NCBI RefSeq assembly: GCF_038024855.1
Contig: NZ_CP139089.1
Coordinates: 372,001-436,000 of the forward strand
Source: Methylocella tundrae
Lineage (GTDB): Bacteria > Pseudomonadota > Alphaproteobacteria > Rhizobiales > Beijerinckiaceae
Length of the DNA: 64,000 nt
Reading direction: 5' to 3'
The translations under genes were made by a program, and so were the position numbers. The notes beneath the pieces are model-generated. The model had not been told where the DNA came from, searched no databases, and worked only from the letters and a program-made list of their open reading frames with translations. Below, piece after piece: positions 1,746 to 10,611 of the stretch (its first letter is position 1; the number at the start of each line of letters is the position of its first letter).

Positions 1746-2729
1746 ATGGCATCGTTTCAGGAGCGAGATATCGTCGGGGCGCAGGCGCGCGCCAGTTCGT
1801 CCGCGATTCCCGTCGCGGAGGGGAAGGGCATCGCCGCCGATCTCATCGCCGTGCTCGTCGCGGTCACCTGCGGCGACCCGCGCGTTTTGACGATCCAGGA
1901 TCAGCGGGCCCTGCCTTCGGGTCCTTTTCAGATCGCGCATCGCTCGCTTCAATCTGGCCTTCGCGCCTGGGTCGAACGCCAGACTCGCCTGCCGCTTGGC
2001 TATGTCGAGCAGCTTTACACTTTCGCGGACAAGGATCGCGCTGGCGCCGAGCAGCAGATCATCTCGATCAGCTACCTTGGCCTTACCCGTGAACAGCCCG
2101 CCTCTGGCGAATATGAAGCGAGCTGGGGCAGCTGGTATTCCTATTTTCCCTGGGAGGATCATCGCGTCGGAGCCCCCGCCATGATCGAAACGACGCTGGC
2201 GCCGCGCCTGCGCTCCTGGATCGACTCCGCGGAAGAGTCCGAACTGCGGCAGGAGCGGCTTCAGCGCGCGACGATCACCTTTGGCCTCGATGGCCGCGCC
2301 TGGAACGAGGAACTCGTCCTGCAGCGGTACGAGCTTCTCTTCGAGGCCGGGCTCATCGCCGAAGCGCGCCGCGGAAGCCCGATCACGCCGCCGGAGGGCG
2401 GGCGCTCGATGATCCTTGATCATCGTCGCATCCTTGCGACCGGGATCGCAAGGCTCCGCGCAAAGATCAAGTATCACCCCGTTGTCTTCGAGCTCATGCC
2501 CGAGACTTTTACGCTCTTGCAGTTGCAGCGCTGCGTTGAAGCTTTAGCTGGACGATTGCTGCACAAACAAAATTTTCGCCGCCTGATCGAACAGCAGGAA
2601 CTCGTCGAAGAAACCGGGGAAACCAGCCAGGATACAGGGGGACGGCCCGCCAAACTCTTCTGCTTCCGTCGCGCCGTTTTCACGGAGCGCGCCATCGTCG
2701 GCACCAAGTTGCCGATCGCGAAGGCTTGA
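1746..2729 (+). CDS. nadQ: NadQ-type transcriptional regulator of NAD synthesis
   Basis: The 327-residue protein has a NUDIX-related N-terminal region (about residues 30-230) but no clear NUDIX catalytic box, and a C-terminal winged-helix-like region (about 235-320). This matches the alphaproteobacterial NAD regulator family (COG4111), an NrtR relative. Its position directly before nadA-nadB-nadC supports the assignment. The reading frame ends at 2729, just before two tandem palindromes that are good candidates for its operators. The start at ATG 1746 has only a weak ribosome-binding site. The effector (an NAD-pathway metabolite) is not visible from sequence. Confidence 0.82.
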
Positions 2730-2736
2730 CAAATCT

Positions 2737-2755
2737 TATACTCATCCCCAGCATA
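2737..2755. promoter_or_regulatory. Putative NadQ operator, site 1
   Basis: TATACTC (2737-2743), 5-nt spacer, CAGCATA (2749-2755). The left half-site equals the reverse complement of the right half of site 2. The right half-site matches that consensus at 5 of 7 positions. It overlaps a plausible promoter that starts with TTGACA at 2725-2730, so a bound repressor would block RNA polymerase. Assignment to NadQ is inferred from position. Confidence 0.6.
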
Positions 2756-2764
2756 TGGACCAAT

Positions 2765-2783
2765 AATGCTCAGAGGGAGTATA
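2765..2783. promoter_or_regulatory. Putative NadQ operator, site 2
   Basis: AATGCTC (2765-2771), 5-nt spacer, GAGTATA (2777-2783): the same 7-5-7 geometry as site 1, with centres 28 bp apart. The outer arms of the two sites, CTTATACTC (2735-2743) and GAGTATAAG (2777-2785), are perfect inverted repeats. Site 2 overlaps the nadA ribosome-binding site. Confidence 0.6.
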
Positions 2784-2788
2784 AGTCC

Positions 2789-3826
2789 ATGGCTCTGCCG
2801 TCGGAAGTTTTGCGTGTCGACAATCGCGGCGAGGAGCCTCAGCGCGCGCGCCGGGCCGTCGCGCCTCATGCGCGCGATCTCTACGCCAAGGTAAGCCACG
2901 CGATCCCGGCGATCGAATGGCCTATTTACGCAGCCGACATTGACGCCATCATGACGTTGAAGCGCACCCGCAACGCGGTGGTGCTCGCGCATAATTATCA
3001 GACGCCTGAGATCTTTCACTGCGTCTCGGACATCGTCGGCGACAGCCTCGCCCTCGCGCGTGAAGCCATGAATGTCGACGCCGATGTGATTGTTCTGGCC
3101 GGCGTCCATTTCATGGCGGAGACGGCGAAACTGCTCAATCCGGACAAGACGGTGCTGATCCCCGATCTGGGAGCCGGCTGCTCGTTGGCCGAGTCGATCA
3201 CGCCTGAGGATGTGCGGCGGCTTCGCCGGACTTATCCCGGCGTCCCGGTGGTGACTTATGTCAACACGTCGGCGGCGGTGAAGGCGGAATCGGATATCTG
3301 CTGCACGTCGGGCAACGCCAAGGCTGTTGTCGAATCGCTCGGCGTCGATCGCGTCATCATGCTGCCGGACGAATTCCTTGCGCGCAATATCGCCGCGCAG
3401 ACGAAGGTCAAGATCATCAACTGGTCAGGCCACTGCGAAGTGCATGAGCTGTTCACCGCCGCCGAGGTGCGCGAACTGCGTGAAGACTATCCGGGCGTCG
3501 TCGTTCTGGCGCACCCCGAATGTCCGCCGGAAGTCGTGGCGGAAGCCGATTTTTCCGGCTCGACAGCGGCGATGCAGGCCTATGTGGCGCAGCATCGTCC
3601 GGCGCGGCTGGTGCTGCTCACCGAATGTTCGATGAGCGACAATGTCGCCGTGCAATATCCCGAGCTCGAGTTCGTGCGCCCGTGCAATCTCTGTCCGCAC
3701 ATGAAGAAGATCACGCTCGGCAACATCAGACGCGCCCTTGAGACAATGCATCATGAGGTGCGCATCGATCCCGCGATCGCCGCCCGCGCGCGCGTCGCCG
3801 TCGAGCGCATGCTGGCCGTCAGTTAA
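2789..3826 (+). CDS. nadA: Quinolinate synthase NadA
   Basis: NadA condenses iminoaspartate with dihydroxyacetone phosphate to quinolinate, using a [4Fe-4S] cluster. From ATG 2789 the protein is 345 residues. The three predicted cluster ligands are Cys131 (GAGCSLA), Cys216 (SGHCEVH) and Cys302 (CNLCPHM). The substrate motif [10 protein letters not shown] lies near residue 66. ATG 2789 is preferred over an in-frame TTG at 2726 because AGGGAG sits 9 nt upstream and the TTG lies inside the operator/promoter region. It heads nadA-nadB-nadC and is presumably repressed by NadQ. Confidence 0.95.
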
Positions 3827-3880
3827 GTCCGGCTGGCGTGATCGAACCAACACACCGAACACAGATTTAGGGTGACCGAT

Positions 3881-5401
3881 ATGGACGCCACGGGCGCTTG
3901 CATCATTGTCGGCGGCGGTCTCGCCGGATTGTCGACGGCCCTTGCCTTGGCGCCGATGCCAGCCATCGTCTTGAGCAAGGCGCCGCTGGGCCTTGAAGCG
4001 TCGAGCGTGCTCGCGCAGGGCGGCGTCGCGGCGAGTCTTGGACCGGATGATGACGTCGCTTTGCATCTTGCCGATACGCTCAAAGCCGGCGACGGGCTGT
4101 GCGATGCGGCTGTCGCGCATTCCATTCTCAGCGCCGCCCCCGCGGCGATCGAGGAACTGATCCGCTATGGCGCGCCGTTCGATCGTGACGCGGAAGGGCG
4201 TCTTGTGCTTGGCCTTGAAGCCGCGCATTCGCGCCGCCGCATCGTCCATGCCGGCGGCGACAGCAGCGGCCGCGAAATCATGCGCGCGCTGGTTGAGCGC
4301 GTCCGCAACACGCCAACGATTACGGTTATCGAGGGGATCTCGGCGCACCGTCTGATCGTCGAAGACAATGCCGTCACCGGCGTCGTCGCCGAGGCGGAGA
4401 CCGGACCCGTTCTGTTCGCCTCCAATCACATCGTCATCGCAACAGGCGGCGTTGGCGGCCTCTACCAATATGGCACCAACCCGGCAGGTTCTTTCGGTCA
4501 AGGGCTGGCGCTGGCCGCGCGCGCAGGGGCCGTGATGGCCGACCTCGAATTTGTGCAGTTCCACCCAACGGCGCTCGACAGCGACTCTTTTCCGCTGAAG
4601 CTCATCAGCGAGACCGTACGGGGCGAAGGCGCCATCCTGATCGACGAAACCGGACGCCGCTTCATGGCCGGCAAACCCGGCGCCGAACTTGCGCCGCGCG
4701 ACATCGTGGCGCGCGCTGTCTTTGCGCAACTGGCGGCGGGGCATCGTGTTTTTCTCGACGCGCGCGAGGCCGTCGGCGCCGGTTTCGCCCAGCGCTTTCC
4801 CGCGATCACGAGCTTTTGCCAGGCGGCGGGCGTCGACCCAGCGACGCAGCCGATCCCGATCCGTCCGGCGGCGCATTATCACATGGGCGGCGTCAAGGTG
4901 GATCTTATGGGACGAACTTCGGTCGAAGGGCTCTGGGCGTGCGGCGAGGCGGCCTGCACGGGCCTCCATGGTGCGAACCGGCTTGCCAGCAATTCGCTGC
5001 TCGAGGCGGTCGTTTGCGGCGGCTTCGTCGCAGAAAGCGTCGCCTCGACCAGCCCCGTCCGCCGGCGGAAAGTTCACTGCGATCTTCAGCCCATTGTCCC
5101 CGACGATCCGGCTCCGGTGCGCCAGATCATGACGCGCGCGGTTGGCGTTTTGCGCGACGGCGAGGGACTACGCGAGGCCGTTGGGACATTGTTTGCTTTG
5201 GCGCGGGATCACCGGGCGGCGAGCGACGCCGCCATCGTCGGATTGATGATCGCGGTCGCGGCGTTACGCCGAAATGAAAGCAGAGGCGCTCATGCGCGCA
5301 CTGATTTTCCATGTCCCGCGGCTACGCCGCAAAGATCCACTTTGCAGCTTGAGGAAGCGATGCGCGCGGCGCAGGCGCTTGTTCCCGAACTGGTCGATTG
5401 A
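3881..5401 (+). CDS. nadB: L-aspartate oxidase NadB
   Basis: NadB is a flavoenzyme that oxidises L-aspartate to iminoaspartate, feeding NadA. The N-terminal GGGLAGLSTAL is the FAD-binding Rossmann motif; ASSVLAQGGVAA, FVQFHPTAL and the HYHMGGVKVD and GLHGANRLASNSLLE blocks are typical of the succinate dehydrogenase/NadB flavoprotein family. ATG 3881 is preferred: AGGG lies just upstream, whereas an in-frame GTG at 3872 directly abuts that same AGGG. The stop codon TGA is the first three bases of a GAGCAT-type intergenic repeat. Confidence 0.95.
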   Translation: MDATGACIIVGGGLAGLSTALALAPMPAIVLSKAPLGLEASSVLAQGGVAASLGPDDDVALHLADTLKAGDGLCDAAVAHSILSAAPAAIEELIRYGAPFDRDAEGRLVLGLEAAHSRRRIVHAGGDSSGREIMRALVERVRNTPTITVIEGISAHRLIVEDNAVTGVVAEAETGPVLFASNHIVIATGGVGGLYQYGTNPAGSFGQGLALAARAGAVMADLEFVQFHPTALDSDSFPLKLISETVRGEGAILIDETGRRFMAGKPGAELAPRDIVARAVFAQLAAGHRVFLDAREAVGAGFAQRFPAITSFCQAAGVDPATQPIPIRPAAHYHMGGVKVDLMGRTSVEGLWACGEAACTGLHGANRLASNSLLEAVVCGGFVAESVASTSPVRRRKVHCDLQPIVPDDPAPVRQIMTRAVGVLRDGEGLREAVGTLFALARDHRAASDAAIVGLMIAVAALRRNESRGAHARTDFPCPAATPQRSTLQLEEAMRAAQALVPELVD

Positions 5402-6362: not shown

Positions 6363-6617
6363 TTATTGATCGGACGAATAGCCCTTGTAATCAATCGGGC
6401 GCGCAAAATCGTCGAATGCGCCGGAGATTTCGCCTGGACGCTGCGCGACGAACGCGCTGCGGCCTTCTCGCAGCGGCGCTGTCGGCTCGACGCCGATCGC
6501 GGGCGCTGAATACTCCGACGGCGACGCGCTCATCGGGAAAGGCGTTTGCGCGTAAAGCGTGGTGGCGCCGAGGGCAAGCCCCGAAAAGAGGGTGAGTGTC
6601 AAGAGACTGCGCGTCAT
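6363..6617 (-). CDS. Small secreted protein at the 3' end of the buf operon
   Basis: The 84-residue product starts MTRSLLTLTLFSGLALGATTLYA, a clear Sec signal peptide with probable cleavage after the Ala-Gln region near residue 24. The mature part is Pro/Ser/Ala-rich and has no cysteine. I do not recognise a family. It lies 96 nt downstream of the DoxX gene on the same strand, so it could be the last gene of the bufferin operon or an independent unit. It is convergent with nadC, 10 nt away. Confidence 0.6.
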   Translation of the reverse strand: MTRSLLTLTLFSGLALGATTLYAQTPFPMSASPSEYSAPAIGVEPTAPLREGRSAFVAQRPGEISGAFDDFARPIDYKGYSSDQ

Positions 6618-6713
6618 TCTTTTTCCTCCTGCCTGAAGCGTCGCTACAAGCCAGAATGCGCAAGCTGGCAAAAAGTTCCGCGTGGCTTGGACGGAGGGAC
6701 GAAAAGCCCGGCT

Positions 6714-7196
6714 TTATCGCTTGTTTCCAGAAAAGCCGAAGCGCCGCGCGATCAGATGGTCGAGCGAAAGGGCGCCGGGACCCCGCGCGATGACCACGAG
6801 AAAGCAGGTCGCCCAGACGCCATGCGTCGGCCAGGCGTCGGGATAGACGAAGATTTCAATGACCGCGGTCATGCCGAGTAGAGCCAATGCGGCAAACCGG
6901 CTGGCGAGGCCAAGGACCAGCAGAACCGGAAAGAAATGTTCGGCGAAGGCGGCAATATGCGCCGCTATCGAAGGATCGATCAGCGGAAGCCGGTATTCGT
7001 CGCGAAAGAGATCAATCGCGCTGTCGCTCAGACGCCATCCGTCGACTTTCGTCTGGCCCGACATCCAAAAGACGGCGGCGGGAAAGATGCGCGCGCAAAG
7101 GGACACAAAAGATTGCGGAATGCGATCGAAACGGTCGATCGCGGCGCGGATCGGACGAACCGTGTTCGGCGCGCCATAGCTTTGCGAAATGTCCAT
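6714..7196 (-). CDS. bufD: DoxX family membrane protein (BufD-like)
   Basis: The 160-residue protein has about four hydrophobic helices. It has DoxX-type features: [17 protein letters not shown] in helix 1, then the [19 protein letters not shown] segment and a final helix with [18 protein letters not shown]. DoxX proteins are frequent fourth genes of bufferin operons; their role there is not firmly established, and export or redox support is inference. The start ATG 7196 has AAGGAACGAG upstream and lies 15 nt after the bufC stop. Confidence 0.82.
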
Positions 7197-7211
7197 CAGC
7201 TCGTTCCTTCG

Positions 7212-7982
7212 TTATGAAATGATTGTCCGAATGGCGAGGCCGGCGCTGACGAGCGAGGCGAGGTTAATCGCCAGATCGAAACTGCGACTATCTTGCCGCG
7301 CGACCGCCGCGGCCTCGCCCAGGGGCTCGCCGGATTTGAGGCTTTGAAGAAACGCCGCCGCCCCGGGCGGCAAGCGCCGCACCTCGACTTCGAAGGCGGG
7401 ACGCAGGATGAGCGCATCTTCGCCGCGCCAATGCGCGACTGGCGCCAAGACCATTTCGCCCGCGTTCATCGCCCAGATCGTCACCACAGGAAAAGCGGAG
7501 CGGACGATCTCCAGGGAAGGGTGCAGCGCGAAACGCAGTTCGCCTATGGCCCCAGCGGAGACGCCCGCGAGGTCTGACGCCGCAAGCGGGCGGACGTCGG
7601 CTGCGTGATAGGCGCGCGTGCGCGCCGCCTCGATGCGCGTGACGTCGGCGAGATACGGGACCTTGGCGGCTGGTTCGAACGCCGCGAGGAAATCGGGAAA
7701 TTCATCGCCATAGGTCATCATCAGGGGCGAATGTGGTGGATGCGCCCCTGCGAAGACGCGGGCGCTCGCCTTGAAGAACTCTTCGCCGACGATGCGCCGC
7801 GTCGCCGGAAAGCGCGTCTCGAGCGCGCTGATGAGGCCGACCATGACATTGTTGCGGTAGACCGCGAAGCGCTTGGCCGGCGCTGGCGCGACGTCTGAGA
7901 CGATCCCGGCCGGAGGCGCCAGCGAGGGATCGCGCAACGCGGCGGCGAAAGCATTTTGCAACTGTTGCATGATGTTGCTCAT
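7212..7982 (-). CDS. bufC: DUF2063 family protein, BufC/HvfC-like partner of the MNIO enzyme
   Basis: The 256-residue protein begins with the DUF2063 block (QQLQNAFAAALRDPS..., then KRFAVYRNNVMVGLISALETRFPATRRIVGEEFF), long annotated as a putative DNA-binding domain but now viewed as a partner of DUF692/MNIO enzymes that helps engage the precursor peptide. The start at ATG 7982 follows the bufB stop by 7 nt; the frame stays open further upstream inside bufB, but that part reads as out-of-frame bufB. The tight spacing implies translational coupling. Confidence 0.85.
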   Translation of the reverse strand: MSNIMQQLQNAFAAALRDPSLAPPAGIVSDVAPAPAKRFAVYRNNVMVGLISALETRFPATRRIVGEEFFKASARVFAGAHPPHSPLMMTYGDEFPDFLAAFEPAAKVPYLADVTRIEAARTRAYHAADVRPLAASDLAGVSAGAIGELRFALHPSLEIVRSAFPVVTIWAMNAGEMVLAPVAHWRGEDALILRPAFEVEVRRLPPGAAAFLQSLKSGEPLGEAAAVARQDSRSFDLAINLASLVSAGLAIRTIIS

Positions 7983-7989
7983 CCTCTGA

Positions 7990-8865
7990 TCAGGCGGCCG
8001 GCCGCGTTGCGATGTCGCGCGAGAACAGATCAAGCCGAGCCTGCGCCGCGAGCGCCTCTCCGAGCAGAACCTCGAAAGGCGGCACGTCATTGTCCCACTC
8101 AATCAAAGTTGGCAGCGGGCCGGCGCGTTCGATCGTCATATCAAACAACATGCGCACCTCATTCGCTACAGGCGATCCATGCGAGTCGATGAGAAGCGGT
8201 GCGGATGCGTCGTCAACAGTCTCAAAGAATCCAGCGAGGTGGATTTCGCGGACGAGATGCAAAGGGAAATCGTTGAGATAGGCGTTAGCGCCGGAGCCGT
8301 GATTGCGTGCGCTGACGAAGACGTTGTTGAGGTCGAGCAACAGCCCACAGCCGGTCGCGCGAGCGAGTTCGGCGAGAAATGTCGTCTCTAGGATCGTGCT
8401 TTCCGCGAAACGCACATAGGTCGCCGGATTTTCGATAAGAATCTGCCGTCCGAGCGCGCACTGCGTTTCATCCACGTGGGTGATGACGGCGGCGAGCGTG
8501 GCCTCCGTATAGGGCAGCGGCAGAAGATCGTTGAAGAAGGCGCCGCCGTGCGAGGACCATGCAAGATGCTCGGAGAAGCTCTCTGGCTGGTAGCGATCGC
8601 AAAGCAGTCTGAGGCGGCGAAGATGTTCGCGGTCGAGCGGTTCCGTCGATCCGATCGAGAGGCCGACGCCGTGCAGCGAAAGGGCGTAGTGGTCGCGCAG
8701 GAAACGCAGTTGCGCGTGTGGAACGCCGCCGTCGCCCATATAATTTTCCGCATGGACTTCAAAGAAGCCGATGGGCTGACGTTCCGCCGTGATTGCCGCG
8801 AAATGCTCAGGCTTGAAACCAACGCCGGTGGCGGCGGGAAGGCGTGAGGTCGAAAAAAAGGACAT
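7990..8865 (-). CDS. bufB: DUF692/MNIO iron enzyme, bufferin maturase BufB
   Basis: This is a 291-residue multinuclear non-heme iron-dependent oxidative enzyme with a TIM-barrel fold. In bufferin loci it converts precursor cysteines to thiooxazole heterocycles that bind copper. Metal-site motifs are visible in order: [72 protein letters not shown] and LIDSHG. The start is ATG 8865; the frame is open much further upstream but that part lies over bufA and the promoter. The gap to bufA is 68 nt. Confidence 0.92.
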
Positions 8866-8933
8866 GGCAAACCCTTGCGGCGTCGATGAAAAGGGAGGCG
8901 CGAGGATGATCCCGCGCGCCTCGATGCGGATCT

Positions 8934-9230
8934 TCAGGACTTGGAGGGGGTCATGGATCCCATGCCATGCGGGGTCGTGATGGTGTCGCATGTGCCCTTG
9001 GCGACATATTTCCAATGGGCGCCGTCGTAATCGACCTTCGAGGTGCCGGCGCAGGTCGTGCCCGCGCCTGCGGCGCAATCGTTTTGACCCTTGAGGGCAA
9101 CGCCGTAGCATTTGTCCTTGCCTGGCTGCGCGGGGGCGGGGCCGGCGGAGGCTTGCGAAGCGAGCAGGGTCAGAGCCGTCGCAAAAGCGCCGGCGAGGGA
9201 GGCGGAGGCCATCTTGTCCTTGGCGGTCAT
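8934..9230 (-). CDS. bufA: DUF2282 bufferin precursor peptide BufA
   Basis: The 98-residue precursor has a Sec-type signal peptide ending near residue 29 ([10 protein letters not shown]). The core has four cysteines at positions 41, 52, 60 and 81 in the DUF2282 pattern: [13 protein letters not shown], then TTC, then KGTC. In characterised bufferins the two central cysteines become copper-binding thiooxazoles and the outer pair forms a disulfide; assignment here is by homology. AAAGGAAAC lies 6 nt before ATG 9230. It is the first gene of the minus-strand operon, about 55 nt after a predicted ECF promoter. Confidence 0.92.
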
Positions 9231-9290
9231 GAATGTTTCCTTTATCGAAAAGTAGGATAGGCGCAGGCTGCTTCAGCCCGGCATTGTCTA

Positions 9291-9317
9291 TTACGGAGGC
9301 TGGACGGCCAGCGTTAC
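9291..9317 (-). promoter_or_regulatory. ECF (SigF-type) promoter of the buf operon
   Basis: On the minus strand GTAACG (9317-9312) is followed by a 16-nt spacer and CGTAA (9295-9291). The same -35 element and identical spacing occur before the divergent sigma gene (CGAAT there). A GTAAC-N16-CGAA type pattern is what I recall for SigF promoters in Caulobacter. The predicted start site is near 9285. Confidence 0.72.
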
Positions 9318-9374
9318 GGCTGCTTTTGCGCTTTCCCGGTTGACAAAAAAGTGACCGTGAAGCCGCGCTACAGC

Positions 9375-9401
9375 GTAACGCAGGGGCCCTGGAAGCCGAA
9401 T
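9375..9401 (+). promoter_or_regulatory. ECF (SigF-type) promoter of the sigma/anti-sigma genes
   Basis: GTAACG (9375-9380), 16-nt spacer, CGAAT (9397-9401). The -10 ends 2 nt before the first in-frame ATG (9404), so transcription would begin at or after that ATG. This suggests autoregulation by the sigma factor and argues for a start codon further downstream. Confidence 0.72.
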
Positions 9402-9421
9402 GTATGAACGATGGAGCGCGC

Positions 9422-9979
9422 GTGCGCGTTGAGGACCGCGAAAAGGAATGGGCCCGACTGATGCGCGCGAGCAACGCGGGCGACGCGGCGGCGTACCGGC
9501 GGCTGTTGCTTGAATTGACTCCGGCGTTGCGAGCCTTCGCGCGAAAGGGCGTAGTGCGCGCGGGGGCGGCGATAGCGGAGGCCGAGGATGTCGTGCAGGA
9601 GACGCTGCTCGCGGTGCACCTCAAACGGCAAACCTGGGATCAGGACGCGCCGCTCAGCCCCTGGCTTTTCGCCATCGCGCGCCACAAGCTGATCGACGCC
9701 CTACGCCGGCGCGGCCGCCGGATCGAGCTTTCGATCGACGATTTCGCGGAGGTCCTGCCGGGCGTCCGTGATGATTCTGAGTCTATCGTCTCGGACGTCA
9801 GCCGCCACCTCGACGGCCTGCCGCCCGGACAACGCAATGTCGTGCGCTGCATCGCGGTCGAAGGCGCCTCGATCGATGAAGCCGCCACCCGTCTGTCGAT
9901 GAGCAACGGCGCCGTTCGCGTCGCCCTGCATCGCGGACTGGCGGCGCTGGCTGCGAAGTTTCGAAGAGTTGAGTCATGA
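9422..9979 (+). CDS. sigF: ECF sigma-70 factor (SigF-like)
   Basis: From the preferred start the protein is 185 residues with the two ECF domains: region 2 ([20 protein letters not shown], then [23 protein letters not shown]) and region 4 ([16 protein letters not shown], then the helix-turn-helix [27 protein letters not shown]). GTG 9422 has GGAG 6 nt upstream; ATG 9404 lies 3 nt after the predicted -10 and so would fall outside or at the very end of the mRNA. The gene overlaps the anti-sigma gene by 4 nt. It probably controls itself and the bufferin operon. Confidence 0.88.
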
Positions 9980-10611
9980 AGACGAGCGAACTCATCAACG
10001 CGCTTTCCGAAGATCAGGTCACGCCGCCGGCGCCTCGCCGCGCGTTGACGCTTGCTTTGATCCCCGCCGTCGTGATCGCCGTGTGCCTGTTTCTCGCGGT
10101 TCTGGGGCCAAGGCCTCATTTTCTGGCGCTGCTCGCCGAGCCGCGATTTTTGTTCAAGCTGATCGTCTGCGACTTGCTGGTCGCCTTCTCCGGCCTGCTG
10201 GTCTTGCGCCTGTTCCGGCCGGGCGCCGCCGTCCACGGCGCTTTGATGCTGGCCGTTGTCGCGCCGGCGTTGCTTGCGATCGGCGTCGGCGTCGAACTGG
10301 CCGTCGTTCCGGCCGCGCAATGGGGTCAAAGGCTGGTCGGCTCCAATTCGATGGTTTGCCTGAAAAGCATTCCCTTTCTTGGCTTTGCGCCGCTCATTGC
10401 GACATTGTTCGCGCTGCGCAATGGGGCGCCGGAGCGTCCGGCTCTCGCCGGCGCCGGAGCGGGGCTTTTCGCCGGCGCGATCGGCGCCGCCCTCTACGCG
10501 ACGCATTGCCCGGACGATTCGCCTCTTTTCGTAGCGGTCTGGTATCCATTGGCGATCGCGCTGCTGACAGGCCTCGGCGCCGCGCTGGGCGCGCGCCTGC
10601 TGCGCTGGTAG
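9976..10611 (+). CDS. nrsF: NrsF-type membrane anti-sigma factor (DUF1109)
   Basis: The 211-residue protein is predicted to have six transmembrane helices with a short cytoplasmic N-terminus ([14 protein letters not shown]) expected to hold the sigma factor. Two family cysteines are present, Cys128 (SMVCLKSIP) and Cys178 (THCPDDSP), spaced 50 residues apart as in Caulobacter NrsF, where they are needed for signal response. Gene overlap with the sigma factor (ATG inside the sigma 3' end) implies coupled synthesis. The likely signal is metal or oxidant stress such as copper. Confidence 0.87.
   Translation: MKTSELINALSEDQVTPPAPRRALTLALIPAVVIAVCLFLAVLGPRPHFLALLAEPRFLFKLIVCDLLVAFSGLLVLRLFRPGAAVHGALMLAVVAPALLAIGVGVELAVVPAAQWGQRLVGSNSMVCLKSIPFLGFAPLIATLFALRNGAPERPALAGAGAGLFAGAIGAALYATHCPDDSPLFVAVWYPLAIALLTGLGAALGARLLRW

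Follow-up and report, generated by a model that had tools for sequence, protein, structure and literature searches.

What does a compact six-gene locus in the genome of Methylocella tundrae make, and what switches it on? The locus lies near the start of a 64,000-nucleotide stretch that we analysed as a whole (contig NZ_CP139089.1, positions 372,001 to 436,000; hereafter the window, whose own numbering is used below). The initial annotation had read it as a complete bufferin-type copper peptide locus equipped with its own sigma/anti-sigma pair, a reading that our data uphold: the case for a Buf1 bufferin operon joined to a SigF-NrsF pair is supported by the protein families, the conserved cysteines, the order of the genes and the two promoters. 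We give a probability of roughly 0.88 to a vertically inherited Buf1 operon controlled by a SigF-NrsF pair of the extracytoplasmic function (ECF) type ECF16, working by the mechanism proposed below. The locus is an intact and fairly ordinary example of a described cluster type with its own stress switch. Its genes are as follows.

6714-7196, minus strand: bufD, DoxX-family membrane protein (PF07681, E 4e-17)
7212-7982, minus strand: bufC, DUF2063 partner protein (PF09836, E 8e-29)
7990-8865, minus strand: bufB, MNIO enzyme of 291 aa (PF05114, MbnB_TglH_ChrH, E 3e-99)
8934-9230, minus strand: bufA, DUF2282 (Buf1) precursor of 98 aa (PF10048, E 4e-24, 84.8 bits with a cut-off of 22.4)
9422-9979 (GTG start, preferred) or 9404-9979 (ATG start), plus strand: sigF-like ECF sigma factor (PF04542, E 2e-12; PF08281, E 6e-10)
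9976-10611, plus strand: nrsF-like DUF1109 anti-sigma factor (PF06532, NrsF, E 3e-54)

These calls combine open reading frames with Pfam (curated cut-offs) and NCBIfam profile searches over the whole locus. All six genes exceed the curated Pfam cut-off among the window proteins, and the order, strands and families first assigned to them were confirmed, as were the core cysteines of BufA at positions 41, 52, 60 and 81. The left edge, on the other hand, had been drawn too far out: position 6363 is the end of a neighbouring gene, and the operon proper ends at 6714 with the doxX (bufD) stop codon. From bufA to bufD the genes are spaced by 68, 7 and 15 nt, and the nrsF ATG overlaps the sigF stop codon. 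Judged by eye, the BufA N-terminus resembles a signal peptide, with a basic start, a hydrophobic stretch and the residues ASA ahead of the mature part. Because the NCBIfam BufA2 model matches it merely weakly, we assign bufA to Buf1 and not to Buf2. The bufB product scores 370 bits against the NCBIfam MNIO_BufB model (cut-off 310), with the MbnB, ApyH, ChrH and HvfB models all under their cut-offs, and shows sequence kinship with the solved MNIO proteins 3bww, 8hci, 7tcr and 7fc0. Its start was placed at ATG 8865, although the open frame extends further upstream, while bufC may begin at either ATG 7982 or ATG 7970. For sigF the NCBIfam model NF009165 gives 281 bits (cut-off 198), the match beginning at residue 9 of the longer reading. 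A whole-genome search returned one MNIO gene and one DUF2282 gene, so that deletion of this single operon would probe its function free of a paralogue.

To see how constant the arrangement is, the MNIO protein was searched against genome contigs, where at least 572 relatives were confirmed; the best 80 were kept, and all 80-locus counts below refer to these. Every kept relative with a class-level name belongs to the Alphaproteobacteria, two metagenome genomes being labelled just Pseudomonadota or Proteobacteria, and the closest MNIO among the matches listed is that of Methylocapsa acidiphila (72%). Matches to bufA, the MNIO gene and the DUF2063 gene are co-located in 80/80 loci, joined by a DoxX match in 72, sigF in 58 and nrsF in 58; all six genes occur together in 54. 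The four BufA cysteines are kept in 94/94 loci (the 80 relatives plus 14 regions from the genus, three contigs being counted twice). Two cysteines of NrsF, C128 and C178, are found in 70/70 loci, compared with 3/70 for C37 and 5/70 for C65.

Between the two operons lies a pair of motifs, one facing bufA and the other sigF; they are the only matches in the window.

9292-9317, minus strand: SigF-type promoter motif of bufA, GTAACG-N16-CGTA
9375-9400, plus strand: SigF-type promoter motif of sigF, GTAACG-N16-CGAA

Two matches compare with a mean of 0.12 in shuffled sequence, and none of 100 shuffles had two. The CGTA form of the bufA copy recurs in many relatives, whose 138 upstream regions (from the 80 loci) were scanned with a spacer of 15-17 nt. 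Among loci with a sigF match the motif stands ahead of sigF in 51/58 and ahead of bufA in 44/58, and it precedes bufA in 10 of the 22 loci lacking such a match; two scrambled patterns gave 0 and 1 match in the same regions. Within the genus 14 regions were fetched, and both promoters are present in all 12 that have sigF in view (one of them from the window's own species and one from M. acidiphila, which is also among the 80 loci). By analogy with relatives we predict that the two motifs act as SigF promoters; generic sigma-70 and terminator scans yielded nothing useful. Since the -10 element of the sigF copy ends 3 nt before the first in-frame ATG (9404), translation of sigF probably starts at GTG 9422, and the same kind of start correction has been proposed for Bradyrhizobium ecfF (PMC3420878).

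The nearest described counterpart is found in Caulobacter vibrioides (crescentus), where buf1 (CC3254-3257) and sigF-nrsF (CC3253-3252) comprise the same six genes (PMC3511200, PMC8224329), apparently also divergent to judge from how the genes are numbered and ordered in the operon. SigF promoters there read GTAACC-N16-CGAA, the same type as the window's motifs (PMC3511200), and the Caulobacter NrsF cysteines C131/C181 and the presence of MsrP in the regulon (PMC3511200, PMC8224329) are matched here by two conserved NrsF cysteines and an msrP motif; C128/C178 are equated with C131/C181 and with C129/C179 by their position, without alignment to those proteins. In each of the four conditions tested in Caulobacter, the SigF regulon rose with copper (log2 1.4 to 6.3), and a sigF mutant was copper-sensitive and severely impaired on copper (PMC8224329). 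Unlike Caulobacter, the M. tundrae genome has no second (buf2-like) operon, and it carries the motif ahead of an MsrB-MsrA pair as well. Other published systems share parts of the design. In Bradyrhizobium japonicum the ECF16 pair EcfF-OsrA belongs to the same sigma and anti-sigma families, uses GTAAC(g/a) promoters and controls methionine sulphoxide reductases, one of them predicted to be periplasmic; the published regulon names no bufferin genes, and DUF692, DoxX and DUF2282 are absent from the text of the paper (PMC3420878). RpoE7-EcfR7 of Sinorhizobium meliloti has a divergent four-gene target, SMb20527-20530, that is orthologous to CC3254-3257; no inducer was found there, and the locus is missing in some strains (PMC6180224). 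From the Buf1 bufferins, or captophorins, themselves (DUF2282 precursor, MNIO, DUF2063 partner and DoxX; PMC12452194, PMC13097082) the present operon shows no essential difference in what those sources describe. Sigma-70 and NrsF domains recur in Buf1 but not Buf2 clusters, and bufferins bear thiooxazoles on the two central cysteines and a disulphide between the outer two and chelate periplasmic copper (PMC12452194); they are grouped with related peptides as captophorins, which carry 5-thiooxazoles (PMC13097082).

The genes, the conserved residues, the promoter motifs and the conservation of those motifs are read directly from the DNA analysed here, and on them a working scheme can be built in which promoter activity, peptide modification, export, copper binding and the signal are projected from relatives. 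At rest NrsF, a membrane anti-sigma factor with conserved Cys128 and Cys178, would keep SigF inactive. Metal stress in the envelope, most likely from copper, or oxidant stress would alter NrsF and release SigF, which would then fire both divergent promoters and raise bufABCD and sigF-nrsF together. BufB and BufC would act on the BufA precursor in the cytoplasm, turning Cys52 and Cys60 into thiooxazoles; the peptide would be exported by Sec, Cys41 and Cys81 would form a disulphide, and the mature product would chelate copper in the periplasm.

The reach of the switch may extend beyond the locus. Four of the nine matches to GTAACR-N16-CGWA in the whole M. tundrae genome face bufA, sigF, an MsrP gene and an MsrB-MsrA pair, the last two outside the window. 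At msrP the motif, in GTAACA form, lies about 60 nt upstream (G000:C3:3362026), and in the case of msrB-msrA, whose products have exported-looking N-termini, it lies 257 nt ahead of msrB (G000:C3:2406726-2407567); matches L083, L084, L087, L088 and L090 lie inside or abut open reading frames and were set aside, and the match on contig 2, L161, was left out. Close MsrP orthologues in the genus carry the motif in 8/10 cases (the search gave 27 rows, of which 17 distant proteins were left out of the count), and 5/15 genus genomes have no close MsrP. An MsrB search (32 rows, 30 with loci) found the motif within 260 nt in 8/30, L134 included, and in three more (L141, L143 and L147) about 0.9 kb upstream, before an msrA that precedes msrB, making 11/30. 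Three scrambled patterns gave no match in the 450-nt MsrP and MsrB regions, a control that covers all but the 0.9-kb sites. Counted by genome, an MsrP site is present in 8/15 and an MsrAB site in 11/15; four genomes have both (M. tundrae itself, a second genome of the species, G040, and G007 and G009), and every one of the 15 has at least one. Methionine sulphoxide reductase genes under ECF16-type sigma factors have been described in Caulobacter (MsrPQ; PMC8224329), Bradyrhizobium (three such reductases; PMC3420878), perchlorate reducers (PMC4623255) and Brucella (PMC8315932), so that the link seen here extends a known theme. The SigF switch probably turns on oxidised-protein repair enzymes too: SigF would fire msrP and the exported msrB-msrA pair, whose products would repair methionines in the periplasm that this stress had oxidised.

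The same motif distribution, at MsrP or MsrAB in all 15 genomes, could be turned around to argue that the system is primarily a response to oxidants such as hypochlorite or peroxide, with the periplasmic cysteine of NrsF as sensor, MsrP and MsrBA as the main output, and the bufferin serving secondarily against copper-driven damage. We hold this to be possible, though doubtful. It draws on OsrA, the NrsF-family protein of Bradyrhizobium, whose response to H2O2 depends on C179 and whose regulon includes three Msr enzymes (PMC3420878), on a related ECF16 pair that responds to hypochlorous acid, and on perchlorate reducers in which SigF/NrsF occurs with YedYZ and MrpX (PMC4623255). In Caulobacter, however, CC3255 and CC3252 rose at most twofold with H2O2, t-butyl hydroperoxide, paraquat or diamide (PMC3511200), and the consistent induction of that regulon by copper also speaks for the metal; moreover, NrsF here has Met at positions 1, 91 and 126 only, as compared with the Met-rich OsrA. 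Another soft metal (gold, silver or cadmium) or chromate might take the place of copper as the stress that the chelator answers, and indeed gold and silver as well as copper induce the homologous gig cluster in Cupriavidus (as recounted in PMC8224329), the Caulobacter regulon is inducible by chromate and cadmium (PMC3511200), and ChrB-/ChrA-like chromate genes adjoin the locus in genome G009. Yet on chromate and cadmium the Caulobacter sigF mutant resembled the wild type in its sensitivity profile (PMC8224329), and we judge a metal other than copper to be an unlikely main target.

Several observations weigh against a copper-responsive Buf1 operon under SigF-NrsF control. A sigF match is absent from 22/80 loci and a DoxX match from 8/80, some of these being cut by contig ends, and the motif is missing from 14/58 bufA genes beside sigF and from 12/22 without a sigF match. 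The narrower NCBIfam models HvfC (bufC) and HvfX (bufD) match under their cut-offs, and the equivalog AntiSigF_NrsF gives 106 bits against a cut-off of 300, which places the anti-sigma factor in the Pfam family but outside the narrow equivalog. The orthologous Sinorhizobium promoters showed no increase in response to H2O2, cadmium or chromate (PMC6180224). Across the M. tundrae genome the nine motif matches compare with 33 for a reversed control; in view of this lack of genome-wide enrichment single sites mean little, and the distant ones rest on position and conservation. Finally, two MsrB genes with exported-looking products, L142 and L146, lack the motif, as do the MsrP orthologues L171 and L172.

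Genus-wide, DUF2282 is present in 15/15 genomes, compared with 42/119 in a family sample limited to genomes at least 90% complete. The ammonia/particulate methane monooxygenase (AMO/pMMO) family PF02461 is found in 10/15 of the same genus genomes, matches which show that the search works, and gave no match in the M. tundrae genome. This bears on the idea that the bufferin stores or carries copper to feed cuproenzymes in a methanotroph genus, which might be argued from bufA in every genome and an AMO/pMMO-family gene in ten, and from the single MNIO of M. tundrae, which leaves no second, methanobactin-type one. We regard it as highly improbable: M. tundrae and four other genus genomes keep the operon without the AMO family, the same operon occurs in many Rhizobium and Rhodobacteraceae, and the SigF/Msr wiring is of the stress-response type. 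Very unlikely, too, is a blend in which the bufferin would be both a detoxifier and a regulated periplasmic copper reservoir for cuproenzymes, partly methanobactin-like, with SigF coupling it to MsrP and/or exported MsrB-MsrA. Our findings suggest that this methanotroph genus has the bufferin/SigF design of Caulobacter, along with its promoters, as a core trait whether or not particulate methane monooxygenase is present; in all 15 genomes searched it is accompanied by a SigF-type motif at a gene for methionine sulphoxide repair. bufABCD, sigF-nrsF, msrP and msrB-msrA would make up a testable regulon.

The initial annotation had further supposed that, although the locus type was described, this instance and its wiring might not be. 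What is new is the instance and not its kind, as the Buf1 locus type including its sigma pair is in print (PMC12452194). The part concerning the wiring is only weakly right, because the sigma/anti-sigma pair recurs in Buf1 clusters and Caulobacter has the same wiring, induced by copper. No link of bufferins or MNIO to Methylocella or Methylocapsa appeared among the 20 listed of 111 literature matches, which is not proof of absence. New here are the divergent promoter motifs, the Msr-linked motif across the genus, the genus-wide DUF2282 and the assignment of an 84-aa gene with nadC.

The surroundings of the operon speak to its descent. nadC and an AMP-ligase gene flank it in the window, as they do in 8 of the 12 genus regions that show sigF; one of the two adjoins in three others (L117, L129 and L130), and neither is seen on the short contig L127. 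This common position in most genus regions favours vertical inheritance. In the window the AMP-ligase gene follows nrsF; in G040 (L117) it has no match within 4.9 kb past nrsF. A tandem bufA pair precedes the MNIO gene in three genus genomes, G011, G004 and G008 (L118, L119 and L130).

Between the operon and nadC lies one further gene.

6363-6617, minus strand: exported-looking protein of 84 aa without cysteine, a neighbour probably outside the operon

It is convergent with nadC and on the operon's strand, and its product has no Pfam or NCBIfam match. A search of 5.8 billion proteins, limited to word-sharing relatives, gave 3 matches including itself, the other two being database entries without context. 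Besides those entries the gene has so far turned up in some genus genomes; it occurs in 4/40 relatives including itself, always beside nadC, and also in G040. In G009 (L121) Rhodanese/ChrB-like and ChrA-like chromate transporter genes stand between the bufferin operon and nadC (about 2550-4800), with no exact SigF-type motif ahead of them; there the 84-aa gene adjoins nadC although these genes part it from doxX. With so few relatives, and going with nadC even in that genome, it was rejected as an unlikely fifth operon product. M. acidiphila has a weak copy (36%, E 0.001) in the corresponding position, and given this and the shared strand the gene may be loosely linked to the operon.

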